Below, piece by piece: positions 48,600 through 64,000 of a stretch of DNA of 64,000 bases. The position numbers and the translations under genes are program-made. This DNA is from Henriciella sp. AS95 (GTDB lineage: Bacteria; Pseudomonadota; Alphaproteobacteria; Caulobacterales; Hyphomonadaceae). The notes under the pieces are model-generated. The model was not told the DNA's origin. It did no database searches and saw only the letters and a program-made list of their open reading frames with translations. The stretch's first letter is position 1. Every line of letters begins with the position of its first letter. Location: NCBI RefSeq assembly GCF_038900055.1, contig NZ_JBBMQM010000001.1, positions 2,976,001-3,040,000 on the forward strand, read 5' to 3'.

Positions 48600-48715
48600 C
48601 GCACACCCCGTGAGCGAAAGTGTTCACTGTCGGTGACGCTGTTGGTCATATCGACTTGTCAGAAATCGGTGAAGCTGTCCCCACTGCGCAAAAGTCGCAT
48701 TTTTGGGAGGAACAG

Positions 48716-51043
48716 ATGAAACACCACACGCCGCACATTGTGCGTCTCGCACTCGTATCCGCAACAGCCCTGACCGCCGGTCTCGCTGTCCACGCCCAGG
48801 ATACATCCACCACCGAAGAAGCCAACGATCAGCGCCGCTTCAACACGGTCACCGTCACGGCCCAGCGCCGCGAGCAGAACCTTGTCGACGTGCCGGTCTC
48901 GGTCTCCGCATTTGATGGCGACCTGCTGGCCGACCTTGGCGTCGCCGACCTGACCGAAATCGCAAAGATCTCGCCGAACGTGACCCTCGAAGTCTCGCGC
49001 GGCACGAATACGACCCTGTCCGCCTTCATCCGCGGCGTTGGCCAGCAGGATCCGGTCGCAGGCTTCGAAGCCGGCGTCGGCCTCTATGTCGATGACGTCT
49101 ATCTCAACCGTCCACAGGGCGCCGTTCTTGATGTCTATGACGTCGAACGCGTCGAGGTGCTGCGCGGCCCGCAAGGCACGCTTTACGGCCGCAACACAAT
49201 TGGCGGCGCGATCAAATACGTCACCCGCAAGCTTTCCGACACGCCAACCTATGAAGTGAACCTCAAAGCCGGCACCTATAACCAGTTCGATGGGATCGTG
49301 ACGACGTCGCTTCCGGTGACCGACAATTTCCGCGTCGGCGCTTCTGTCGCCAGCCTCAACCGCGATGGCTACGGTGAGAACATCATCACCGGCGACGAAA
49401 ACTACAACAAGCAGCTCTTCGGTGCGCGTCTTTCGGCTGAACTGGATGTCTCCGACACGTTCCAGGTGCGCGCAGCGGCTGACTATTCGCTCGACAAGTC
49501 CAATGCCCGCCAGGGCCATCGCCTGCTCGCCGACCGGTTCCCGCCCTTCACTTATCCGGTCCTCGGCGACGTGTTCGACACGCGTGCTGGTCTGGATGTC
49601 ATTGAACAGCGCGTCGAAGCCTATGGCGGCTCGCTCGTGGCCGAGCTTGAGGTCAATGATAACTGGACGGTCAAGAACATCCTCGCTTACCGCGAAGATG
49701 AAAGCACTTCGCCCATCGACTTCGACTCGCTGCCGGAAGCCGATGTGGACGTCCCGGCCATCTATGAGAACGACCAGTTTTCCGAGGAGCTTCAATTCCT
49801 CTATTCAGGTGACCGCCTGAACGGTCTGATCGGTTTCTACTATCTCGACGCCAATGCCTCGACCGTGTTCGATGTGCTGCTCGCCGAAACCGGCGCCATT
49901 CTCAGCCCTCCACTACCCGGCCTGAACGCGCAGACCTTTGGTGAGGTCGGCACGGAAACCTGGTCGATCTTTGGTGACTTCACCTATGACCTGACAGATC
50001 AATGGTCTGTTTCGCTCGGTGGCCGCTACACCGAAGATACACGCACATCGAGAGTGCTTCGCCGCACCTATATTGGCGGCTTCTCGGAGTATTTCGGCGG
50101 AGATCCGCTCCTCATCGCAACCACTTCGGATTTCAACGGCGAGGCTGACTATGATGATTTCAGCCCACGCGTTTCGGTTTCCTACAAGCCGACGCCGGAT
50201 ACCAATATCTACGCGACATACTCGCAGGGCTTCAAAGGCGGCTCTTTTGACCCGCGCGGTCAAACGACAGCGGCCGCGGACGTGGACAATGACGGGTCGC
50301 TCTCCGAACAGGAAATCTACGACTTCATGCAGTTCGACCCCGAAGAGGTCGACTCCTATGAAATCGGCTATAAGGCAAGCCAGCTCGGCGGTGCTGTAAA
50401 CTACAGTCTCGCAGCCTTCTATTCCGACTATAAGGACGTCCAGGTTCCCGGCTCCATCGGCGTCGACACCGATGATGACGGCATCGCGGACTCCTTCTCG
50501 GGTGTCACCACCAATGCCGGTGCCGCCACGATCTGGGGCGTTGAATTCGAAGGCACAGCCACAGTTGCAGAAGACATGGCCCGCTCTGGCGACCTTCTGA
50601 ACTTCGGCTGGTCACTCGGCTATCTTGACGCCCAGTTTGACGAGTACATCGACGCTTTCGGCAACAATGTCGCCGATCAGCGCGTCATCCAGAACACGCC
50701 GGACTGGACGGCCAATGGCCGCGTTTCCTACGATACGCCATTCGCCGGCGGCAACCTGCTGCTCAACACGCAGCTCTCCTATCGCGGTGACTCCAGCCAG
50801 TTCGAAGTGCCTGGCCCACTCGACCAGGAAGCGTTCACCCTCTGGGACGCCAGCGTGCGCTGGGAAACCGAGGATGGCCGCTGGGGCTTCCAGCTCACCG
50901 GCAAGAACCTGACCGACGAAGAGTATATCGTCGCCGGCTATGACTTCGTGAACGTGGCGTCACCGCTCGGCATCGAAGGCACGCTGACCGCCTTCTATGG
51001 CGATCCGCGTACCGTAACCGCAGGCATAGACTACAAATTCTAG
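48716..51043 (+). CDS. TonB-dependent receptor
   Basis: A 775-residue receptor. The signal ends at VHAQ, and then VTVTAQRREQNLVDVPVSVSA forms the TonB-box and plug start. The plug also has FIRGVGQQDP and VEVLRGPQGTLYGRNTIGGAI. This is the sphingomonad-type class, distinct from the two large sugar receptors, and is often tied to steroids, terpenes, aromatics or vitamins. GGGAGGAAC precedes ATG 48716. The neighbouring hydrolase, transporter and crotonase suggest a hydrophobic ester or acid as cargo (inference). Confidence 0.94.
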   Translation: MKHHTPHIVRLALVSATALTAGLAVHAQDTSTTEEANDQRRFNTVTVTAQRREQNLVDVPVSVSAFDGDLLADLGVADLTEIAKISPNVTLEVSRGTNTTLSAFIRGVGQQDPVAGFEAGVGLYVDDVYLNRPQGAVLDVYDVERVEVLRGPQGTLYGRNTIGGAIKYVTRKLSDTPTYEVNLKAGTYNQFDGIVTTSLPVTDNFRVGASVASLNRDGYGENIITGDENYNKQLFGARLSAELDVSDTFQVRAAADYSLDKSNARQGHRLLADRFPPFTYPVLGDVFDTRAGLDVIEQRVEAYGGSLVAELEVNDNWTVKNILAYREDESTSPIDFDSLPEADVDVPAIYENDQFSEELQFLYSGDRLNGLIGFYYLDANASTVFDVLLAETGAILSPPLPGLNAQTFGEVGTETWSIFGDFTYDLTDQWSVSLGGRYTEDTRTSRVLRRTYIGGFSEYFGGDPLLIATTSDFNGEADYDDFSPRVSVSYKPTPDTNIYATYSQGFKGGSFDPRGQTTAAADVDNDGSLSEQEIYDFMQFDPEEVDSYEIGYKASQLGGAVNYSLAAFYSDYKDVQVPGSIGVDTDDDGIADSFSGVTTNAGAATIWGVEFEGTATVAEDMARSGDLLNFGWSLGYLDAQFDEYIDAFGNNVADQRVIQNTPDWTANGRVSYDTPFAGGNLLLNTQLSYRGDSSQFEVPGPLDQEAFTLWDASVRWETEDGRWGFQLTGKNLTDEEYIVAGYDFVNVASPLGIEGTLTAFYGDPRTVTAGIDYKF

Positions 51044-54244: not shown

Positions 54245-54754
54245 TCAGTCCGACAGGTTCGCGAAGACTTCAGACGCATTGTAGAGCGACGGGCTGACGC
54301 TCGCATCCTTGTCGGAAAGCACGATTTCCAGCACGACAACGGTCGTGTTCCGTTCGGTCTCGATGCCGTCATAGAAGGGGTCGTTCGGCGCCCGCGAAAC
54401 CGAAGTCGTGCATGCGAGCAGCCCGCAATCACGCTCGACCACCGTATCACGCGACGGATACCGCTCAGTGCGTTCGCTGTCGCGGTTGGTCGATTGCGAG
54501 ACGACTTCGAACGTGTCGAACCCTTTCTCCAGCGTCAGCTGGGCGGCCCGGCGCAGCGCCAGGGACTGGGCCTCGGCCACATTGTCCTTATTCAGCCGAT
54601 AGCCGACCTGATAGCGGTTCGCTTCAATCTGTGTGTCGGTATACCCCGAAGACCGGCTGCCCGGGGCCTCGCGATAGGTCTGCGTGCTCGCGCAGGCGCT
54701 CATCAGCATGAGCCCTCCTGCAGCCAGAGCCAGTTTCAAATGATGAGTACCCAT
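54245..54754 (-). CDS. CC0125/CC1285-type lipoprotein
   Basis: A 169-residue lipoprotein with LMLMSAC as lipobox. The mature part shows YTDTQIEANRYQVGYRLN and ALRRAAQLTLEKGFDTFEVV, which I recognise from the Caulobacter CC0125/CC1285 family, whose function is unknown. Two cysteines in CGLLAC lie in a loop. It begins 3 bases after the anti-sigma stop and is the third gene of the ECF operon. That suggests an envelope-stress or signal-input role, but no partner can be named. Confidence 0.8.
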   Translation of the reverse strand: MGTHHLKLALAAGGLMLMSACASTQTYREAPGSRSSGYTDTQIEANRYQVGYRLNKDNVAEAQSLALRRAAQLTLEKGFDTFEVVSQSTNRDSERTERYPSRDTVVERDCGLLACTTSVSRAPNDPFYDGIETERNTTVVVLEIVLSDKDASVSPSLYNASEVFANLSD

Positions 54755-54757
54755 TGC

Positions 54758-55552
54758 TTACTCCGTTTCTGCCTGTTTTTTCGTCCATCCGGACTGAATA
54801 AGGTCAGCTTCCGCCGAGGTGTCGAGCGGGGCATCACTCATCGCTGTATCGAGAAACGTCTCGATGCTTTGCGAACCTGCCGCGGAAGCTGTTCGATAAG
54901 GCCCTTGGGAGGGAGAGGCGGCCTCACCGAAAGTGGCGATGGCTACACGCCAGGCGTCTTCTGCCCGGCAAGCCACCAACCGACCGTCCGTTCTGGACGT
55001 ATTGATATCGACGACGCGACAGTATTGCTCACCGCTAATGAAGGTGAGACGCGGTGTCGCCACCATCCCGTCGCCGAATTCCGTTTCTGTGCCGCTGGCG
55101 GACGCTTCGAGCACGCGCCCGAAGCCGCTATCGGCATAGTAAGTTCCGCTGACCGAATCGACGCTGGCCACCTGGGCCGGGATCGCCGTCGTCATCGACA
55201 TTGTACCAGCCGCCACCACGACACCCGCTGCGACGGCCCTGTGTTTCTCGATGAAGGCACCCGCCCGCTTCCAGATCGGGAAGGCGACAACGTTCGAAGA
55301 CTCCTCGGCACTGACAGTGCCCGATTCCAGGTTGTCCATCAGGTCACTGAGGCCAGCACTCATCGGAACATCATCAATCTCGCCCGCCGCCGCGTCGAAA
55401 TTCGACTGCGCAGCCGCCAGCGCCTCGAGACGCGCGGCAACAGCCTCATCGCCAGCAATCATTGCCTCGGTCTTCGCCATTTCCTCAGGCGAGAGTTCGC
55501 CATCGAGGAAGGCGCTGAGGCGAACATCAAGATCTTTCAGGGCATCAGTCAT
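54758..55552 (-). CDS. Anti-sigma factor
   Basis: A 264-residue protein overlapping the ECF sigma gene by 8 bases. The N-terminal cytoplasmic part (LSAFLDGELSPEEMAKTEAMI) is the typical anti-sigma helix set without the zinc-binding H-x3-C-x2-C. One membrane segment lies near residues 88-110 (AAGVVVAAGTMSMTTAIPA), and the periplasmic domain (~115-264) is where a signal would act, probably through proteolysis. No known sensor fold is recognised in that domain. Confidence 0.85.
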   Translation of the reverse strand: MTDALKDLDVRLSAFLDGELSPEEMAKTEAMIAGDEAVAARLEALAAAQSNFDAAAGEIDDVPMSAGLSDLMDNLESGTVSAEESSNVVAFPIWKRAGAFIEKHRAVAAGVVVAAGTMSMTTAIPAQVASVDSVSGTYYADSGFGRVLEASASGTETEFGDGMVATPRLTFISGEQYCRVVDINTSRTDGRLVACRAEDAWRVAIATFGEAASPSQGPYRTASAAGSQSIETFLDTAMSDAPLDTSAEADLIQSGWTKKQAETE

Positions 55553-56039
55553 GATAGCCTGTCCTTTCTGCGACCATCGCGCGTGCCCGTCCGAGCCGGC
55601 TCATGATCGTTCCAATCGGGGTGTCCAGCATCGCTGCGGCTTCCTTGTAGGAAGCGCCGCCGAGCCCAACCACCGTCATCACTTCGCGGTAGGCATCGGG
55701 CAGTTCATCAATGGCTTCGCGTGTCTTCGCCATCATCATCTGGTCGGCCGCGACCGTCTCGCTCGACAGCGTATTGGCCGGCCGCTCCCGCAATTCAGGC
55801 ACCGCTTCCAGGCGCGTCTTCTTTGCGCGAAGGCCATCGATCCATAAATTGCGGCACACTCTGAACATCCACTTCTTCAATTCGGCATCGTCCGGTAAGC
55901 CCCGGTCGAGCACACGTTCAATTACACTCTGCACGAGATCGTCAGCGTCCGCGGCATTGCGCGTGAGCGAGTATGCGAAGCGCCGGACATGCGGCACCGC
56001 TTCGACAATCTCATTATTAAGACCAGGCCTGTTAGTCAT
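55545..56039 (-). CDS. ECF RNA polymerase sigma factor
   Basis: A 164-residue ECF sigma factor. Region 2 (~12-75) has RFAYSLTRNAADADDLVQSVIERVLDR, and region 4 (~105-160) has LPDAYREVMTVVGLGGASYKEAAAMLDTPIGTIMSRLGRAR. No extra domains are present. A promoter-like motif GGAATA-N15-CGTGA lies immediately upstream (56050-56075), with only 10 bases between it and the ATG, so the transcript would have a very short leader. The same motif precedes two exported-protein genes nearby, which points to autoregulation and a local regulon. Confidence 0.95.
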   Translation of the reverse strand: MTNRPGLNNEIVEAVPHVRRFAYSLTRNAADADDLVQSVIERVLDRGLPDDAELKKWMFRVCRNLWIDGLRAKKTRLEAVPELRERPANTLSSETVAADQMMMAKTREAIDELPDAYREVMTVVGLGGASYKEAAAMLDTPIGTIMSRLGRARAMVAERTGYHD

Positions 56040-56049
56040 TTCACCTCAT

Positions 56050-56075
56050 TCACGTCTCGGCTGCGGTTTTATTCC
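56050..56075 (-). promoter_or_regulatory. Candidate ECF promoter of the sigma operon
   Basis: Read on the minus strand: GGAATA, 15 bases, CGTGA. The same -35-like box and exact spacing recur at 59858-59883 and 60850-60875. GGAA-type -35 and CGT-type -10 boxes are known for ECF sigma factors of Caulobacter (SigT type). It ends 10 bases before the sigma ATG. Confidence 0.7.
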
Positions 56076-56084
56076 CGGCTGCAT

Positions 56085-56110
56085 GAAATTTTTTTAGAAA
56101 TGATACGTCT
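56085..56110 (+). promoter_or_regulatory. Weak match to the ECF promoter before the protease gene
   Basis: On the plus strand, GAAATT-N15-CGTCT keeps 4 of 6 and 4 of 5 positions of the motif with identical spacing. It lies 36 bases before the protease ATG, the same distance as in the two exported-protein genes (34-35). A TATACT box at 56115-56120 might instead serve a housekeeping promoter. Confidence 0.35.
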
Positions 56111-56145
56111 CTACTATACTTAGAAATGTAGAACTGGAGCCGGAT

Positions 56146-57618
56146 ATGGCGATAAGCCCCTTCCTCTCACGTCTTGGCGCCCTGTGCGCGGGAACCATGC
56201 TTGCCATGATTCCAGCCGCTCACGCACAGCTTCTGCCGGGATTGGCTGACTCGCTGGAACAAACGGTCCGCGACGTCGAACGCACGGTCGAAGACCTCGT
56301 AACCGAGCAGATTGGCAACGGTCTCGATGACACGCTCGAACCTGTGGGCGAACTGCTGGAAGGCTTGCCAATTGTTGACGGCATCGGCGAGGTGGCGACT
56401 TCAGTCGACGTCGGCAATACGCTTGTCGATACGCTTCAAATCATCGCGCTGGACGACACGCTGGGCCGGACCATCGGACTGGTCGATAATCTCACCACCG
56501 CCATTCCGGGCATTTCCCGCCTGCCCATCAATGTTCGCGGCGCACGCCCGATAGAGCTGGACCTCGATCAGGGCTGGCCGGTCGTGCGAAACGAATGGGT
56601 GGTGCTCGTCCCATCTGCCCGCGCGGGCGACGTGGAAGACCTCGGCGTTGACATCGTGGAGCGCACGGACCTCTCCGGCGCGGACGAAACGCTGTTTGTC
56701 GTGAGCCTCACATCCGACACGCCAACCGCTGAGGCCATTGAGGCAAAGCTCGCCTCGCTCGACGCCTCACCATCAGACCGCAATCACGTCTTTCGGGGCG
56801 CGTCAGAGCCGTCCGATCTGGCCAGCGATATTGCCAGGCGGATGAGTTCGACGACCAACGTCGACGCGCCCAGCCCGGACGCACTTCGCATCGGCCTCAT
56901 CGATACGGACGTCGACGAAACCCACCCTGCCCTGCAAAACATCACGCTTTACGAGGCTGATTTCGTCTCAATGGGAGAGTTTCGTCCGCAGACGCATGGC
57001 ACCGCCGTCGCGTCCATCCTGGCGGCAAACAATGCGAAAAGCCCTGAGGCGCGGCATGAATTGCTGGCGGCCTCGGCATTCTTCCTGTCCAGCGACGGGA
57101 CCACAGGCGCAACCTCGGCCAGCCTCATCGAAGCCATTGACTGGCTGCAGGCAAATGGCGCGGCCGTGATTAATGTCAGCCTGACCGGCCCACCCAATCG
57201 GGCGCTGGAAGCCATCATCCAGTCGCGGCAAGACGCCGGAACCGTTTTCGTGGCTGCTGTCGGCAATGAAGGCCCCGCCTCCGGTCCGCTCTATCCGGCC
57301 GCCTATGACGGCGTTGTCGGCGTCACAGCGGTCGACGCAAAGGGGAAAATCTATCGCTGGGCCAATCGCGGATCATTTGTGGATGTCGCTTCGCTCGGCG
57401 TCGATGTTCCCGTTGCAAAGCCTGGCGGCATGGCCACTCGCGACTCCGGCACCAGCTTCGCCGCTCCGATCGTGACCGCCTTTCTCGGCGGCTGGACCAA
57501 TGCGAGGCGGCTGGAGCCCGGCGCCGCAGACAGTCTCATCCAGGCCTCTGTCCGCTCCCGCCCCAAAGGGGGGCGGGACGACATCTACGGCTATGGGATC
57601 CTGTCTCCGACGCGCTAG
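56146..57618 (+). CDS. Subtilisin-like S8 serine protease, exported
   Basis: A 490-residue exported protease. The signal ends at AHAQ (residue ~27). Residues ~28-235 are an unassigned region with helical DDTLEPVGELLEGL-type segments, likely a pro-domain. The S8 catalytic domain follows with D253 (LIDTDVD), H284 (THGTAVAS), oxyanion Asn in AAVGNEGPAS and S437 (SGTSFAAP). It is divergent from the ECF sigma gene. It could process the neighbouring exported proteins, or act in anti-sigma cleavage; both are inference. Confidence 0.9.
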   Translation: MAISPFLSRLGALCAGTMLAMIPAAHAQLLPGLADSLEQTVRDVERTVEDLVTEQIGNGLDDTLEPVGELLEGLPIVDGIGEVATSVDVGNTLVDTLQIIALDDTLGRTIGLVDNLTTAIPGISRLPINVRGARPIELDLDQGWPVVRNEWVVLVPSARAGDVEDLGVDIVERTDLSGADETLFVVSLTSDTPTAEAIEAKLASLDASPSDRNHVFRGASEPSDLASDIARRMSSTTNVDAPSPDALRIGLIDTDVDETHPALQNITLYEADFVSMGEFRPQTHGTAVASILAANNAKSPEARHELLAASAFFLSSDGTTGATSASLIEAIDWLQANGAAVINVSLTGPPNRALEAIIQSRQDAGTVFVAAVGNEGPASGPLYPAAYDGVVGVTAVDAKGKIYRWANRGSFVDVASLGVDVPVAKPGGMATRDSGTSFAAPIVTAFLGGWTNARRLEPGAADSLIQASVRSRPKGGRDDIYGYGILSPTR

Positions 57619-57627
57619 GCTGCTGGT

Positions 57628-58548
57628 CTAGAACTCCACCTTCAGGCCGACCTTGCCGACATGTTCGTCATAGTCGGCGCTGTCGAGGTTCGACTGGCGG
57701 TCACGATACTTGTAGCCGAAGTCCATCGATACCGGTCCGGCAATCTCGACTTCGACGTCGCTCTCGGCTGAGACGATCTCATCCTGACGCTCTTCGCCGA
57801 TTGCCGGATCTACCGCCTGGTAGTCACGGTTTTCGTACTCTGCGCCGAAGCGCATGGTGGTCTCCTTGCCCAGAACATCAAAGCGCTGGGTATAACGCGC
57901 CTGGGCTGAGCCACCCTTGAAGTCGAACTGGTCGAGTTCGGCGTCTTCCTCGCCATACTGACCGCCAACGGAGATGTATTGCTTGTTGCCATTGAGGAAG
58001 AAGAACGCATCAACGCGCGCCGCGTCGCCTTCAGCATCACGGCCGTCCTGCGTCTTGAAGTCCTTGAACGACTTCACATAAGCGCCGCGGACAAACACCG
58101 AGTCGCCAAACAGGCGTGAGATATTGGGCTGGATCTGCGTGTAATCGAGATAGCCCTCATCATCGAGGCGGGCATGGACATAATTGGCCAGCACGCCCGC
58201 TTTCACGACCTTGAAGTCATACTCGGCCTCGGCAAACCCACGATGGGTCTGCAGGTCGAACTCACCAAAGTCCTGATAGCTCGTATCGGTGATTTCGTAG
58301 CCGGCACGGATCACCGCCTCCTTGGTGGGCTTGATGTCCATCTGGAGACGGCCCCGAAGCTCAACAGCGACATCGCTATTGTCCGTATTCTGATCAAGGT
58401 CCGGAATACCGACATTGCTGTCAGCGACGGCGCTGACGCCGCCTTCGATTGTGAACTTTACCGTATCGTCGGCGGCGGCCGTCTGAGAGAGCGCCAGCGT
58501 GGACAGGGTGATGAAATGTGCTTGCAGTATCGACTTTGAAATCTTCAT
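57628..58548 (-). CDS. Predicted outer-membrane beta-barrel protein
   Basis: A 306-residue protein with signal peptide ending at TAAADD. Alternating hydrophobic strands and a terminal phenylalanine (VGKVGLKVEF) mark a beta-barrel of about 12-14 strands. It resembles the outer-membrane beta-barrel proteins that accompany polysaccharide-export genes, but I cannot name a family. ATG 58548 has TTGGAGGAAAG upstream. It converges with the protease gene and lies downstream of the repeat protein, with a hairpin between, so it may be made by read-through from that gene's ECF-type promoter. Confidence 0.78.
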   Translation of the reverse strand: MKISKSILQAHFITLSTLALSQTAAADDTVKFTIEGGVSAVADSNVGIPDLDQNTDNSDVAVELRGRLQMDIKPTKEAVIRAGYEITDTSYQDFGEFDLQTHRGFAEAEYDFKVVKAGVLANYVHARLDDEGYLDYTQIQPNISRLFGDSVFVRGAYVKSFKDFKTQDGRDAEGDAARVDAFFFLNGNKQYISVGGQYGEEDAELDQFDFKGGSAQARYTQRFDVLGKETTMRFGAEYENRDYQAVDPAIGEERQDEIVSAESDVEVEIAGPVSMDFGYKYRDRQSNLDSADYDEHVGKVGLKVEF

Positions 58549-58581
58549 TTGTCTTTCCTCCAATGCCTGTTTGTTGGGGGC

Positions 58582-58624
58582 GAAGCCGGCGGACTTGCAA
58601 GGGTTGGGGTGGCCCGCCGGCTTC
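58582..58624 (-). terminator. Hairpin after the 20-residue-repeat protein gene
   Basis: An 11-bp stem (GAAGCCGGCGG with its complement) encloses a loop rich in GGGGTGG. There is no T-run on the minus strand, so read-through to the barrel gene is possible. It closely matches the hairpin at 59959-60002. Confidence 0.65.
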
Positions 58625-58638
58625 TATGATTGATCCGC

Positions 58639-59823
58639 TTACAGGCCGAGCGAACCAACCACTCCGTCTACGATGCTTGTATCAACCACATCGTTAATTT
58701 CCGATGAGATTTCGTTCGACAGCGTCGACACGAGATCGGCGGCAACGTCGGCCATGATCACGTCATCAACGGCGACCATTGAGTCCGACATCATATCGAC
58801 ATCGTGATCAGTCTCGACAGCCTGACCGCCTTGATCACCTTGATCGCCCTGGTCGCACTGACCGCAATTGAGGAGATTTGGGCCGGTGCCAGAGCTGACC
58901 TTTTGCAGCGCTCCCGGGACAAGTTCCACGACATTGCCGCCCAGCTGATCGCCCGTCTGATCGGCAGTGCTGCCAACGAGGTATTTGGAGGCTGTGACTG
59001 CGCCGGTGAGGCGCTCGATCTTGTCAGCCTTGAGGCCTTCGACAAGCTCGACCCCATTGGCGATGCCATCTTCCGTATCGGGACCGTCGCCGCCGCAGCA
59101 GCTTCCGTCACGCTCAGCGACCTGGTCGAGCAGGCCATTAACGACGTCCAGACCGTTAAACGCTTCAGGTGCCGGCTGATCGCCATCAGATTCCAGGCCG
59201 AGCAGGCTCAGCTGGAGGCCGACCGAGCCATCAACGTCAACGTCGGCGAGCGACCCGTGAAGCACGGATATGTCGGCCGCGATATTCAAAGGGATGCTCG
59301 TGTCGAGCAGCGCGCCGTCGAGGACCGAGAGTGCCGCCGGCACGTCAGGGTGCAGGCAGCTATCCAGCAAGGCCCCATTCAGCCAGGCGACATTCGCGAG
59401 CAGGTCCGGATTCGCATCCGTGTTCAGAAGGGCACCGTTGAGGACCGAAATGATAGCGGCGACATCGGCGTCGACATCGGCATCAACCAGCGCGCCGCGC
59501 AGGATTTCGATGTCTGCCAGCGCATCGGCGTCCAGAACAATATCTGCCAGGGACCCTTTCAGAGCATCGAGGGTCGCCAGGATTTCTGCGTCCGCAACCG
59601 CGTCGAGCACCGATCCGTCCAGAAGATCAAGAGCCAGCGGACCCTGCAGGTTTTCGTCTGCATAAAGAGGGCCGTTTTGGAACAGCTCAACTGCCTGGGT
59701 GTTGCCAGCGTCTCCGGTGGTCACACCGGATGCACCGGTCGATCCGGATGTGGCAGGCGCTGCGGTCGCAAACCCGACCATCAGAACTGTGGCCAGTGCC
59801 GTCATGGATGTCGTCTTGATCAT
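58639..59823 (-). CDS. Exported protein with 20-residue tandem repeats
   Basis: A 394-residue exported protein with no family I recognise. The signal peptide ends around residue 22. Residues 69-208 are seven consecutive units of exactly 20 residues with consensus x-G-[AS]-L-x-D-x5-D-[VIL]-x-A-x-[IL]-x-x-L; a 19-residue unit precedes them at 50-68. The periodic G, L and D suggest a solenoid or calcium-binding fold. Later parts include a CC pair and a DQG-rich stretch (~330). The last ~45 residues match those of the protein at 60019. GGAATA-N15-CGTCA lies 35 bases before the ATG. Confidence 0.82.
   Translation of the reverse strand: MIKTTSMTALATVLMVGFATAAPATSGSTGASGVTTGDAGNTQAVELFQNGPLYADENLQGPLALDLLDGSVLDAVADAEILATLDALKGSLADIVLDADALADIEILRGALVDADVDADVAAIISVLNGALLNTDANPDLLANVAWLNGALLDSCLHPDVPAALSVLDGALLDTSIPLNIAADISVLHGSLADVDVDGSVGLQLSLLGLESDGDQPAPEAFNGLDVVNGLLDQVAERDGSCCGGDGPDTEDGIANGVELVEGLKADKIERLTGAVTASKYLVGSTADQTGDQLGGNVVELVPGALQKVSSGTGPNLLNCGQCDQGDQGDQGGQAVETDHDVDMMSDSMVAVDDVIMADVAADLVSTLSNEISSEINDVVDTSIVDGVVGSLGL
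59200..59676 (-). repeat. 60-bp period coding repeat (7 full units plus one shorter)
   Basis: The protein repeat corresponds to a 60-base period over 420 bases (59200-59619), with a 57-base unit before it. The units have diverged in DNA while keeping the protein pattern, so selection has acted on the fold rather than recent slippage. Confidence 0.85.
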
Positions 59824-59857
59824 GTTTTTACTCCTTCACCTTCACAAGATGCAACAC

Positions 59858-59883
59858 TGACGAGTGGGGTCGGATTTTATTCC
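59858..59883 (-). promoter_or_regulatory. Candidate ECF promoter of the repeat-protein gene
   Basis: GGAATA-N15-CGTCA on the minus strand, 35 bases before the ATG. It starts just after a terminator that ends the upstream gene's transcript. Confidence 0.72.
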
Positions 59884-59885
59884 AG

Positions 59886-59915
59886 AAAAAATCCCGAGCT
59901 CTGTAAAAACTCGGG
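59886..59915 (-). terminator. Intrinsic terminator upstream of the repeat-protein promoter
   Basis: On the minus strand CCCGAG-N11-CTCGGG is followed by ATTTTTT. It ends transcription from the gene at 60019-60816 just before the next promoter. Confidence 0.85.
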
Positions 59916-59958
59916 AAATCAATGCACTAAAGGGTTCTTTTAAGACGTATAGGGAAGA

Positions 59959-60002
59959 AAGAAGCCGGCAGGATGGAGGGGTGGGAGCGCTGCCGGCTTC
60001 TT
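59959..60002 (-). terminator. Hairpin after the second exported-protein gene
   Basis: A 12-bp stem (AAGAAGCCGGCA with its complement) around a GGGGTGG-containing loop, 16 bases after the stop. Sequence and spacing mirror the hairpin at 58582-58624, as expected for duplicated 3' ends. Confidence 0.75.
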
Positions 60003-60018
60003 CTTGGTGATCGCTCGC

Positions 60019-60816
60019 TTACAAACAGAGCGCGCCGATCACAGTATCAACAACCGTCTCATCCACCACGGCGTTGATATCCTCTGTGAGCTGACTGGTC
60101 AGGTCCGCGGTAAGGCTTTCCGCGATGTCTTCATTGACCGTCTCGTGAATGACCGCTGTCATTTCCGATGCCACATCCGGTGACACATAAAGACTGATTT
60201 CCAGAGCGCCCGTCGTCTCAGGCGTCGGTTGGCTGACATTGTCCAGAACATCATCGGTCAGGATGTCCTCTATTCCGGTCATCCGGTCTGTCTCCTCCGC
60301 GATAGCCGCCGCCAGCACGTCGCCGCAATCTGCGAAACCATTTCCCGTCGCCCGGGACGCCGCGCCGGAGCGGGTCACGCCGTTAAACGAGACCAGCTGG
60401 GCCGTGTCACAATTTCCGTCAGCCACCGCGTCGAAGCGCAGCGTGGACAAATCGCGGACAGGCGTAACAGGCTCGCCAGAGGGCGCCGGTGTGGTGTTAT
60501 TGCTGGCCTGAAGCTGGCGCGGTGCGCGTGTGACTTTGGCAGGGGGTGGACTGACAGCCTTTTGTTCAGTGCGGACCGTATCGGTGGCCGACCGGCTGAC
60601 CGCCATTTCTTCGGACCGGATCGTTTTGGTACCTGTCCGCTTCTCGGTGGACACGACTGCCTTACGATCAATATCGGTGTCGGCCGAAAAGTCCGTAGAC
60701 GGTTCGAACCACGAGTCCGAGAAGACAGCTGCGCAATCCTGCACGGCCTGAGGTCGCGCGATGATGAGCGTGGCAATTACCGCAAATGCGGCTACAGGAA
60801 TCTTTGAATGGATCAT
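60019..60816 (-). CDS. Exported protein sharing a C-terminal module with the repeat protein
   Basis: A 265-residue protein of unknown function. A hydrophobic signal (residues ~5-22) is followed by a low-complexity Thr/Ser/Lys-rich stretch (~45-110) and a cysteine-containing middle with CDTAQLVSFNGVTRSG. The amphipathic C-terminus ends in DINAVVDETVVDTVIGALCL. The corresponding end of the repeat protein is EINDVVDTSIVDGVVGSLGL, and the similarity extends about 45 residues back. ATG 60816 has AAGGAGCGAC upstream. GGAATA-N15-CGTCA lies 34 bases before the start. The shared end could be a sorting or assembly signal. Confidence 0.8.
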   Translation of the reverse strand: MIHSKIPVAAFAVIATLIIARPQAVQDCAAVFSDSWFEPSTDFSADTDIDRKAVVSTEKRTGTKTIRSEEMAVSRSATDTVRTEQKAVSPPPAKVTRAPRQLQASNNTTPAPSGEPVTPVRDLSTLRFDAVADGNCDTAQLVSFNGVTRSGAASRATGNGFADCGDVLAAAIAEETDRMTGIEDILTDDVLDNVSQPTPETTGALEISLYVSPDVASEMTAVIHETVNEDIAESLTADLTSQLTEDINAVVDETVVDTVIGALCL

Positions 60817-60849
60817 TTGTCGCTCCTTGTCTTTGACATGGCAAGGAAG

Positions 60850-60875
60850 TGACGGGCCGGATCGAACTCTATTCC
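60850..60875 (-). promoter_or_regulatory. Candidate ECF promoter of the second exported-protein gene
   Basis: GGAATA-N15-CGTCA on the minus strand, 34 bases before the ATG, with the same boxes and spacing as at 59858-59883. Confidence 0.72.
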
Positions 60876-61035: not shown

Positions 61036-63027
61036 TCAACCCGCAATAAGGTCGCCAAGCGCGGCTTTGAGAGGGCCCAGATGCGGTTCGAAATGGCGCC
61101 ATTGCTCAAGCCCGGATGCCGAGATCGGCTGACGCACCTGTTCCGAGCTCGCCGTGCGGACCGCCCGCTTCGTCTTGTGAAAGTCGACGCAGGCCTGTTC
61201 GAATGGCAGGCCGCAATAATCGAGAATGCGCCGGACCTGCGTCTCCAGATCGCCAACCACATCCTCATGCTGCACACGCAGGATCCGCCCCTCAGGCAGC
61301 ACGCGGTCCCAATGGCCCATCAGGTCAACATAACCGCGATAGTAATGCCCGATATCCTCAAGGCTGTAGGAGAATTCCTGCCCTTCGGCGAAGAGCTGTT
61401 TGAAGCCAGAGAAACAGCACGCCATCGGTTCGCGGCGCGCATCGATGATCTTCGCATTGGGCAGGATCAGCTGGATCAGCCCGATATGGCGGAAATTATT
61501 GGGCATCTTGTCGGTGAAGAACGGCGCGCCCTGCCGGTGGATGGCCGTGTTTTCGATATAGTCACGCCCGAGCGCGGCCAGCTCCTCATCGGGCAGATCA
61601 TGCAGGATACGCGGATAGCGCTCACGGTCGCTGACCTGCTTGCGCCCGCGCAGCCTGTGCGCCAGCGACAGGATATTCGGAAGCTCCAACGTGCCATCCA
61701 CCTGGCTGTGCGAGGCCAGGATCTGCTCGATCAGCGTGGAGCCGGCTCTTGGCAGGCCGACGATGAAAATCGGCGCCGGGTCATCATGCCCTGCCCCGGC
61801 TCGGCGAGTGAACAGATCTTGCGTGCAATGTTTTTCCTGCGCGGCAAACTCTTCCTGCATCTGTTCGGTCGTATAGCGCGTCTGGCGCTTCTTCAGCCCA
61901 TTGCCTTCGCTATACCGCTCAAAGGCAGCGTCATAGTCCGCCCGGTCCTCCAGGGCCTTGCCGAGCGCGAAGGCGACATGCACGCGGCCCATATAGGAGA
62001 GGTTCGGGTCGCCGGCGACGCGCTCCATCTCGGCGATCTCATCATCCTCGAAACGGAAGGTCTTGAGATTGGCGAGCGCGTACCAGGCATCGCCTTGCAG
62101 GGGGTCTGCCGCAATGGCCGCGCGATAGGACGCGATGGCCTCATCGGTTTCCCCAAAGGTCTTCAGCGCATGCCCGCGTGACGTCAGGGTCGAGGCATCA
62201 TCCGGCAGCTTTTCGAGCACCTTGTCGAAGGTGTCGATCGCCGCGCCATAGTCACCGGCCTGCATGCTCTCAATAGCAAAAAGCGATTGGAAAACAGGGC
62301 TGTCCGGGTCACGCTTCATAAGCACGTTCGCCTGCTCCAGCGCCGCTTCATACTTCTGCCGTTTACGGAGCACCTGGATGTAATCAATCCGCAGCTGGAG
62401 ATTGTCCGGCTCCAGCTCGATCGCTGTTTCCAGCAGAAAGTCGGCATCCTCATGCACACCGAGCCGCGAGCCAATGTCCGCGAGCAGACGCATGCCTTCG
62501 ACATGTTTCGGATGCTTCTGCATGAAGGCGCGCGCGATCTTCTCTGCGTGCAGCACCTCGCCTTCATGAACATAGTTCGTCACCGCCAGCAGCTCACGCG
62601 GCAAAGCCTCGAGCCGCGCCGCCTGCGCCCGCGCATCCGCCGCCGCCCGGTCCTGGCCAAGCGCGGTATACAGCTCCGCCTGGCGTTGCCAGCTTGCGAC
62701 CAGCGCCGGATTGTATTGCGTTGCCAGCCGATAAGCCGCCAGCGCGCCCGCCTGATCGCCCGTATTGCGCAGCAGGTGCCCCTCTTCCTGAAAGGCCCGG
62801 CCGAAATCCGGCGCGACCCGTTTCAGCCGCGACAGGTAATCGCGGGCCGCGTCAGTCTGTTTCAGATAGCGCGCAGAGGCCGCCGCCATGTACAGCAGCT
62901 CGCGATGCTCCGGCGCGAGGTCCAGCAAATGTTTCGCGCGTGACAGGGCCGCTTCGAAATTGCCCACCTGCATCGCAGCGCGGACCTCTCGCAATATGTC
63001 CTTCTTCACGTAACCTGTCTCGCTCAT
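61036..63027 (-). CDS. TPR-sulfotransferase
   Basis: A 663-residue protein. Residues ~1-400 hold TPR-type helical pairs (for example AALEQANVLMKRDPDSPVF and ALKTFGETDEAIASYRAAIAADP). Residues ~415-660 form a sulfotransferase domain with the PAPS 5'-phosphosulfate loop GLPRAGSTLIEQIL and a 3'-phosphate site near RREPMACCFSGF. No signal peptide is present. Such fusions are common beside TonB receptors in alphaproteobacteria; their acceptors (peptide tyrosine or sugar) are mostly unknown. It lies 75 bases after the receptor gene on the same strand. Confidence 0.9.
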   Translation of the reverse strand: MSETGYVKKDILREVRAAMQVGNFEAALSRAKHLLDLAPEHRELLYMAAASARYLKQTDAARDYLSRLKRVAPDFGRAFQEEGHLLRNTGDQAGALAAYRLATQYNPALVASWQRQAELYTALGQDRAAADARAQAARLEALPRELLAVTNYVHEGEVLHAEKIARAFMQKHPKHVEGMRLLADIGSRLGVHEDADFLLETAIELEPDNLQLRIDYIQVLRKRQKYEAALEQANVLMKRDPDSPVFQSLFAIESMQAGDYGAAIDTFDKVLEKLPDDASTLTSRGHALKTFGETDEAIASYRAAIAADPLQGDAWYALANLKTFRFEDDEIAEMERVAGDPNLSYMGRVHVAFALGKALEDRADYDAAFERYSEGNGLKKRQTRYTTEQMQEEFAAQEKHCTQDLFTRRAGAGHDDPAPIFIVGLPRAGSTLIEQILASHSQVDGTLELPNILSLAHRLRGRKQVSDRERYPRILHDLPDEELAALGRDYIENTAIHRQGAPFFTDKMPNNFRHIGLIQLILPNAKIIDARREPMACCFSGFKQLFAEGQEFSYSLEDIGHYYRGYVDLMGHWDRVLPEGRILRVQHEDVVGDLETQVRRILDYCGLPFEQACVDFHKTKRAVRTASSEQVRQPISASGLEQWRHFEPHLGPLKAALGDLIAG

Positions 63028-63102: not shown

Positions 63103-64000
63103 CTAGTAGTCGTAGCTCAGGCGAAGACCGATCGTGCGCGGACGCATCGGCGTGACGCGCTCACGGTCGAAGACGAAGTCGTTCGACAGCGCCGCATACT
63201 CATTGGTGAGGTTCGTCACGAACAGCTCTGCCGCCCATTTGTCAGCGGTCACACCGGCCGTTACGCCCAGCGTCGCATAGCTATCGAGTTCAGCCTTGTT
63301 GATCTCGATAATGTCGCTGAACGAACCGTCAGAGAAGACGAGCTGCGGCATGACATGCGCGGTGAGATACTGGCCGGCAATCTCCTGCTCGAGATCCCAC
63401 TCATAACGCACCCGCAGATTACCCTGATAGGATGGCGCGTAAGCCAGTTCGCTGCCGACGATCACATCATTGGTTGGCGTCAGGACTTCGGTGATTTCCG
63501 AATCCAGCAGCGAGAACGCACCTGCCACCGTCAGTCCCGGCATGGAATCCGGTCCCCAGGTGAAGTCACCCTCAAGGCCTTTCAGCTCTGCATTCGCCGC
63601 ATTATCGGAGAAGAACAGGTTCACGATGTTCGGATCGAAAATCGTGGTCTGAAGCCCTTCAATCTCGACGAAGAAGGCCGCACCGTTGAAGCGGAGCGAA
63701 TTGTCGAACAGCTCGGTTTTCCAACCCAGCTCATAGTTCGTCACTTCATCGGTATCGACAGCAAACGGCACAGTGTACGAGCCTGGGCCCGATGCGCCGC
63801 CTGGACGGTTCAGCAGGCCTGGGCGGAAGCCTTCCGAATAGGTCGCATAGAACATCATGTCCTCAGTCGGCGTCCATTCACCGGTCGCTTTCACGATCAC
63901 GCCATCGGTCGCGGCCTTGTCCGGATTACCAGCAGCATTACCCGGCGCATATTGAGCCGAGATATTGGTCCCGGCGCGTTGAGCATCATCTGCCTGACCA
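63103..64000 (-). CDS. TonB-dependent receptor, C-terminal part
   Basis: The frame is open from the window end to the TAG at 63103-63105, so this is the 3' part (~298 residues) of a receptor whose start lies beyond the window. ATYSEGFRPGLLNRPGG and YELGWKTELFDNSLRFNGAAF are barrel signatures of the sphingomonad-type receptors, and the protein ends in the aromatic GLRLSYDY. It is not closely related to the sugar receptors earlier in the window. It precedes the TPR-sulfotransferase, a common pairing. Confidence 0.93.
   Translation of the reverse strand, partial: GQADDAQRAGTNISAQYAPGNAAGNPDKAATDGVIVKATGEWTPTEDMMFYATYSEGFRPGLLNRPGGASGPGSYTVPFAVDTDEVTNYELGWKTELFDNSLRFNGAAFFVEIEGLQTTIFDPNIVNLFFSDNAANAELKGLEGDFTWGPDSMPGLTVAGAFSLLDSEITEVLTPTNDVIVGSELAYAPSYQGNLRVRYEWDLEQEIAGQYLTAHVMPQLVFSDGSFSDIIEINKAELDSYATLGVTAGVTADKWAAELFVTNLTNEYAALSNDFVFDRERVTPMRPRTIGLRLSYDY

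Follow-up and report, generated by a model that had tools for sequence, protein, structure and literature searches.

GGAATA-N15-CGTSA sites as probable promoters of a local, self-controlled ECF26-type sigma regulon in Henriciella sp. AS95

The DNA analysed here is a 64-kb stretch of the 3.87-Mb genome of the marine bacterium Henriciella sp. AS95 (contig NZ_JBBMQM010000001.1; hereafter the window, meaning this whole stretch, to which all positions refer). It carries a gene cluster encoding an extracytoplasmic function (ECF) sigma factor, a membrane anti-sigma factor, a divergent protease, two putative exported proteins, and an outer-membrane barrel. The motif GGAATA-N15-CGTSA (S, C or G) precedes the sigma gene as well as the two genes for exported proteins. 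We propose that it is the promoter of the neighbouring ECF26-type sigma factor, which would thus control a local regulon that includes its own gene, and from sequence comparison we put the probability of this reading at about 0.85.

Promoter motif in the window and the genome

An earlier note on this DNA had placed the motif, with an identical 15-base spacing, ahead of the sigma gene and of each gene for an exported protein. Exactly 3 exact copies were found in the window, all on the minus strand (expected mean 0.02; 0 of 100 shuffled sequences reached 3). They are located at 56050-56075 (GGAATA-N15-CGTGA, sigma gene), 59858-59883 (GGAATA-N15-CGTCA, the gene of exported protein 1 and, probably, that of the barrel), and 60850-60875 (GGAATA-N15-CGTCA, exported protein 2). 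The motif ends 34 bases before the start codon of exported protein 1 and 33 bases before that of exported protein 2 (the 34-35 bases given previously were coordinate differences), and an unusually short 10 bases before the sigma ATG at 56039. A probable weak ECF promoter, GAAATT-N15-CGTCT, lies on the plus strand at 56085-56110, and its -35 box stands back to back with that of the sigma site. This weaker copy, which the note had put 36 bases before the protease gene, is present 35 bases ahead of the protease ATG and has 2 mismatches in the first hexamer.

A scan of the genome, as the note had suggested, returned 5 copies of GGAATA-N15-CGTSA, and a gene start stands right behind the motif only in the cluster. 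The 2 other copies lie within open reading frames (ORFs) of 260 residues (on the other strand) and 809 residues, and no ORF of at least 90 residues begins within 250 bases downstream of them. Spacings of N14, N16, and N17 gave 4, 2, and 3 matches genome-wide, indicating a background of about 2-4 per genome against 3 cluster sites inside 4.8 kb. The shorter pattern GGAATA-N15-CGT had 22 matches compared with 17 for a reversed-pattern control, and SA follows in 5 of the 22. Allowing up to 2 mismatches yielded 32 matches in the window for 22 expected, so only near-exact copies are informative. The pattern GGAATW-N15-CGTSW (W, A or T) occurs at 17 genome sites versus 3 for its reversed control, which contains TAA and is therefore biased against in coding DNA. 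Among these 17, a gene begins within about 40 bases on the downstream side only at the 3 cluster sites. ORFs of at least 90 residues overlap all 17 sites on some strand, the cluster's 3 included; overlap alone thus has no power to separate the cluster sites. One of the 17 (L145), at the margin of a 102-residue ORF, is ambiguous.

The sites were also scored with a matrix built from 20 promoters of other genomes, which had been chosen for matching GGAAT...CGT, so that those positions are fixed by construction. The 3 exact sites rank first to third in the window (29.0, 26.6, and 21.5 bits). The note had recognised GGAA/CGT boxes as typical of ECF promoters, and the motif matches the ECF26 consensus GGAATA/GT (-35/-10) given in PMC6180224, the source of all statements on Sinorhizobium meliloti transcription below. 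In that bacterium, overexpression of RpoE6 raised 40 genes (PMC6180224). The serine protease gene divergent from rpoE6 responded in this way, and its promoter was mapped as GGAATA-N15-CGT (PMC6180224).

Conservation of the motif with the sigma cluster

To compare orthologous upstream regions, which the note had also proposed, the best 80 of 131 places encoding sigma relatives were scanned from -160 to +40 of the sigma start for GGAAT, 15-17 bases, and CGT. Nineteen of the 20 closest loci (L052-L071) carry the motif ahead of sigma, as do 2 of the 60 others (L072 and L120); the Fisher probability of 3.5e-15 is not corrected for relatedness. Some loci depend on one another: L054, L055, and L056 are almost identical, and several genomes with G numbers have, judging by length, the contigs of named loci. 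The closest 20 span Hyphomonadaceae, Parvularculaceae, other Alphaproteobacteria, Colwellia, and other Gammaproteobacteria. An S8 protease match accompanies sigma in 20/20 of them, a barrel in 19/20 (not L058), and an anti-sigma match in 14/20 at E 1e-5. By eye, L058 has GGATTA-N15-CGTCA ahead of sigma and GGATTA-N16-CGTC ahead of its exported gene, which looks like a joint change of both promoters with the sigma factor.

Among 8 further loci from relatives of this genome, the motif precedes sigma in 5 (L156, L161, L162, L163, and L167). It precedes the exported genes in 7/7 further loci, with N15 or N16 and 34-51 nt from the start, and is also present ahead of both exported genes of Henriciella pelagia and in L161 and L162. 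The region upstream of the protease was compared in 18 loci. GAAAT-N16-CGT was found in L052-L057, L060, and L063, GGAAT[AT]-N15-CGT in L065-L071, and looser matches in L058 and L064; L161 and L163 carry GGAATT-N15-CGT there. In L163 (3296-3320), the motif also stands past the anti-sigma gene, ahead of a gene for a glycine-rich, exported-looking protein.

The promoter pattern also led to a gene outside the cluster. We scanned 101 genomes for GGAATAAA-N13-CGTC and inspected the DNA downstream of sites in 20 loci. The scan gave 40 sites in 23 of the 101 genomes: 16 in sigma clusters, 3 ahead of an unlinked gene, and 21 elsewhere, which are unexplained. In three Ponticaulis-group genomes, the 3 unlinked sites stand at a distance of about 22-27 kb from the cluster, each of them 33 nt ahead of a gene for a 132-residue exported protein. 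Relatives of this protein were detected in 6 of the 101 genomes. The motif (N15; N16 in G039) precedes its gene in 4/4 genomes with an anti-sigma gene and in 0/2 without an anti-sigma match. In L058 (7136-7507), which comes from another family, the gene for a homologue is part of the cluster, and the other loci are L195, L201, L203, and L207; the genome of the window has no match to this protein. One of the sites elsewhere (L169) is 22 bases ahead of an ORF whose product begins like an exported protein; that genome has no anti-sigma match.

A different element was seen by eye among the 17 S8-paired loci that lack GGAAT. Ahead of sigma in 14 of them, mostly from sphingomonads (L086, L091, L093, L095, L098, L101, L103, L108, L110, L111, L117, L118, L122, and L127), there is a near-perfect palindrome, GGATGAAACG...CGTTTCATCC, with small variations. 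It could act as a single two-way ECF promoter.

Gene products, proposed circuit and alternatives

On the minus strand, the order of transcription is exported protein 2, exported protein 1, and barrel, followed, past the plus-strand protease, by sigma, anti-sigma, and lipoprotein. The sigma factor (55545-56039, minus strand, 164 residues) matches Sigma70_r2 and Sigma70_r4_2 above cut-off and consists of the sigma2 and sigma4 domains only, as the ECF architecture requires. It is 92% identical to its counterpart in H. pelagia, the nearest named relative as judged by this locus. The gene for the membrane anti-sigma factor (54758-55552, minus strand, 264 residues) shares 8 bp with the sigma gene and is conserved beside it. 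In ECF26 systems the anti-sigma factor is encoded downstream and has an anti-sigma domain at its N-terminus, a membrane helix, and a periplasmic domain. The position and alignment of the protein fit this pattern; the zf-HC2 match is weak and below cut-off, and the membrane helix (about residues 105-125) is predicted by reading alone. Cys178 and Cys195, both in the predicted outer part, are invariant in the 11 aligned anti-sigma factors and are also present in the S. meliloti anti-sigma protein. The third gene of the sigma operon (54245-54754, minus strand) encodes a CC0125/CC1285-family lipoprotein (NCBIfam NF047637, 109 bits against a cut-off of 40). The alignments used comprised 26 of 38 listed proteins plus 10 loci (A1), 8 exported proteins each (A2 and A3), 12 proteases (A4), and 11 anti-sigma factors (A5).

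The distance from CGT to the nearest sigma ATG (56039-56054 in the window) is 7-12 nt in 12 of the 15 alphaproteobacterial loci checked, the window included, with exceptions of 14 nt in L064 and 17 nt in L059 and L062. In Gammaproteobacteria it is 22-26 nt in 8 of 9 loci and 11 nt in L067. In S. meliloti, transcription starts were mapped to the 10th base past CGT for the serine protease gene SMa0142 and the 11th for SMc04049 (PMC6180224). Applying this spacing predicts leaders of 25-28 nt for the exported-protein and protease mRNAs and of 2-3 nt for the sigma mRNA. The corresponding starts would lie at 56041-56042 (sigma), 59849-59850 and 60841-60842 (exported proteins 1 and 2), and 56118-56119 (protease). 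Owing to the short gap, the sigma mRNA is predicted to be leaderless, or nearly so, in most of the alphaproteobacterial loci.

The divergent gene at 56146-57618 (plus strand) encodes an exported S8 (subtilase) protease (Pfam PF00082, 104 bits). It contains the Asp-His-Ser triad, and D253, H284, S437, and N374, whose roles are assigned by motif, are invariant in 12/12 aligned proteases. The S8 proteases of L059, L062, and L064-L071 have N-termini with long repeats (such as VEDD, EPEVD, or VEExV) ahead of the catalytic domain. Exported protein 1 (58639-59823, minus strand), which has internal repeats, and exported protein 2 (60019-60816, minus strand) are putatively exported, as read from their signal-peptide-like N-termini. 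They share a C-terminus ending in GSLGL or GALCL. Neither has a Pfam or NCBIfam match above cut-off, and exported protein 2 has one Pfam match below it (E 0.075). No homologue of exported protein 1 was found at E 1e-3 among 8000 candidates scored; H. pelagia holds one with 46% identity, and the null search is therefore no proof of absence. A second match in the window's own genome (L151) was taken as chance, since the opposite strand was read as coding there. The barrel gene (57628-58548, minus strand) encodes a 306-residue outer-membrane beta-barrel with 14 strands. Between it and exported protein 1, a G+C-rich hairpin is predicted at 58582-58624 (minus strand; single-sequence fold, no shuffled control). 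A hairpin in this gap, varying in sequence, was predicted in 10/10 loci folded (the window, L052, L053, L054, L056, L057, L060, L061, L063, and L067); the Colwellia hairpin (L060) is terminator-like, with a T run behind it. Another terminator-like hairpin is predicted past exported protein 2 at 59960-60003 (minus strand, single-sequence fold). A TPR-sulfotransferase gene (61036-63027, minus strand; Pfam) adjoins the cluster, and two ORFs at 48620-51043 (plus strand) and 63103-64000 (minus strand) are TonB-receptor-like by reading.

In the proposed circuit, the membrane anti-sigma factor would hold the sigma factor until an extracytoplasmic signal frees it. RNA polymerase with the free sigma factor would then start at GGAATA-N15-CGTSA ahead of the sigma operon, giving positive feedback. 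The same sigma factor would drive exported protein 1 together with the downstream barrel gene, and exported protein 2, and the GAAAT-type site would give lower expression of the divergent subtilase. The barrel would most likely be a pore that passes the exported proteins or fragments of them, which the protease may process or remove; this last step lies outside the probability given above. The earlier claim that the sigma factor controls itself and the exported genes is supported by conservation of the motif at the same place in other genera, its co-occurrence with the cluster, the unlinked target, and the RpoE6 data. Its label of a surface-protein system goes beyond the evidence, since export was read from signal-peptide-like N-termini and the barrel gene lacks the motif, and so does the protease site, which in this genome is a weak variant.

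Several observations weigh against a local regulon of this kind. The proposal is drawn from sequence and from data on other species, and a score of 24.2 bits, above that of the third site, came up in at least one of 60 simulated windows. The protease site scored 14.5 bits and ranked fifth in the window, under a 14.8-bit site, and the mean best score of simulated windows was 13.8; it is not significant alone and is supported by conservation only, with no match upstream of the protease in L061. Of the further loci, L168 (sigma 37% identical) has no motif ahead of sigma, L164 has no sigma match, and L166 begins inside sigma. No motif precedes the barrel gene in any of 18 loci, and including it in the regulon presupposes that transcription reads through the hairpin. 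Moreover, of the 60 sigma relatives outside the closest 20, 17 have a nearby S8 match and no such motif, and S8 pairing alone therefore does not imply this promoter. Finally, the mapped start of rpoE6 in S. meliloti has no GGAATA box (PMC6180224).

The alternative that survives best accepts the regulon and concerns the barrel, which may be a plain diffusion porin, with the exported proteins as envelope-stress or adhesive products unrelated to its transport. We place this somewhat below even odds. The model of the barrel resembles monomeric channels, no motif stands directly ahead of its gene, and neither the S. meliloti stretch nor L058 has a barrel match. On the other side, wherever the two genes were both read, that of the barrel follows one for an exported protein, and a barrel accompanies nearly all of the closest clusters, which leaves its function undecided. 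An unlikely, more far-reaching idea is self-sensing export. Here, a Slam-/CymA-like barrel without TPR would export low-complexity repeat proteins through a common C-terminal signal (in Hyphomonadaceae, GSLGL or a similar ending), a subtilase under the same control, with similar N-terminal repeats in relatives, would trim them, and their extracellular state would feed back on the anti-sigma factor, in a scheme common to Alpha- and Gammaproteobacteria.

It is quite improbable that the sites are promoters of another sigma factor, such as the general-stress factor EcfG, with the linked sigma factor as a target instead of the controller. ECF promoters do resemble one another, and in S. meliloti the regulons of RpoE6 and RpoE2 have members in common (PMC6180224). 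However, in different families the motif accompanies this sigma cluster, few other sigma relatives have it upstream, and L058 shows the same GGATTA change in two promoters. An EcfG identity is also made less likely by the -35 box, which has AAT (GGAAT) in the cluster sites instead of the AAC of canonical EcfG (ECF15) promoters as described in the literature. Chance matches have a negligible probability: relaxed matches are common in the window and GGAATA-N15-CGT is barely above its reversed control, but the shuffles, the gene starts found only behind cluster sites, the conservation, the matrix ranks, and the unlinked target all argue against them.

Comparison with outer-membrane channels and with RpoE6

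The barrel protein consists of a leader and the barrel only, and has the 14 strands and matching size of CymA/OmpG-like porins. CymA and OmpG are 14-strand monomeric outer-membrane channels, and the likeness comes from the model, with an identity of 5-11%; alignment against sequences of solved structures gave a best E of 0.24, none significant. A likeness to Slam (SlipAM, the surface lipoprotein assembly modifier) is indicated by a SlipAM (DUF560) Pfam match just over cut-off (24.5 bits against 22) and by the NCBI name SlipAM for a 90% identical Henriciella protein. Slam has an N-terminal TPR part, whereas the window barrel has no N-terminal TPR domain, and no Slam structure was among the 50 matches listed for the barrel model.

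The closest known system is RpoE6-EcfR6. The sigma factor is 43% identical over 152 columns to the sigma gene product at the RpoE6 locus of S. meliloti 2011 (L210). Both loci have sigma followed by a membrane anti-sigma factor, a divergent S8 protease, and GGAATA-N15-CGT promoters, and their anti-sigma factors have a common CR...ACR...W pattern. In L210, GGAATA-N15-CGT precedes the S8 gene and a gene for an exported low-complexity protein with SSSN repeats, which by position would be the RpoE6 target SMa0146. The S. meliloti system differs in having no barrel match in the 11-kb stretch and a regulon of 40 genes, whereas exact gene-preceding matches are here found only in the cluster. The S. 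meliloti study arrived at no role for RpoE6 and describes the divergence of rpoE6 from a serine protease gene as widely conserved in ECF26, not in all members (PMC6180224); among the open-licence literature searched, the sigma-protease arrangement was found described in this source only.

The promoter type and the sigma-protease pairing are thus already known, and the cluster shows the testable ECF26 features, namely the ECF architecture, the promoter consensus, and the divergent serine protease gene. The exported proteins and pore that accompany an ECF26-type sigma factor are little studied. What is added here is their association with sigma, including a CymA/OmpG-like barrel, from Hyphomonadaceae to Gammaproteobacteria, the predicted near-leaderless sigma mRNA, and the hairpin between the exported-protein and barrel genes. 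The promoter rule has already led to one target outside the cluster, and the short-leader arrangement is testable. Through this comparison, the sigma-protease unit known from RpoE6 is tied, in two bacterial classes, to low-complexity exported proteins and mostly also to a 14-strand outer-membrane barrel, which provides a hypothesis of what this ECF26 branch controls.

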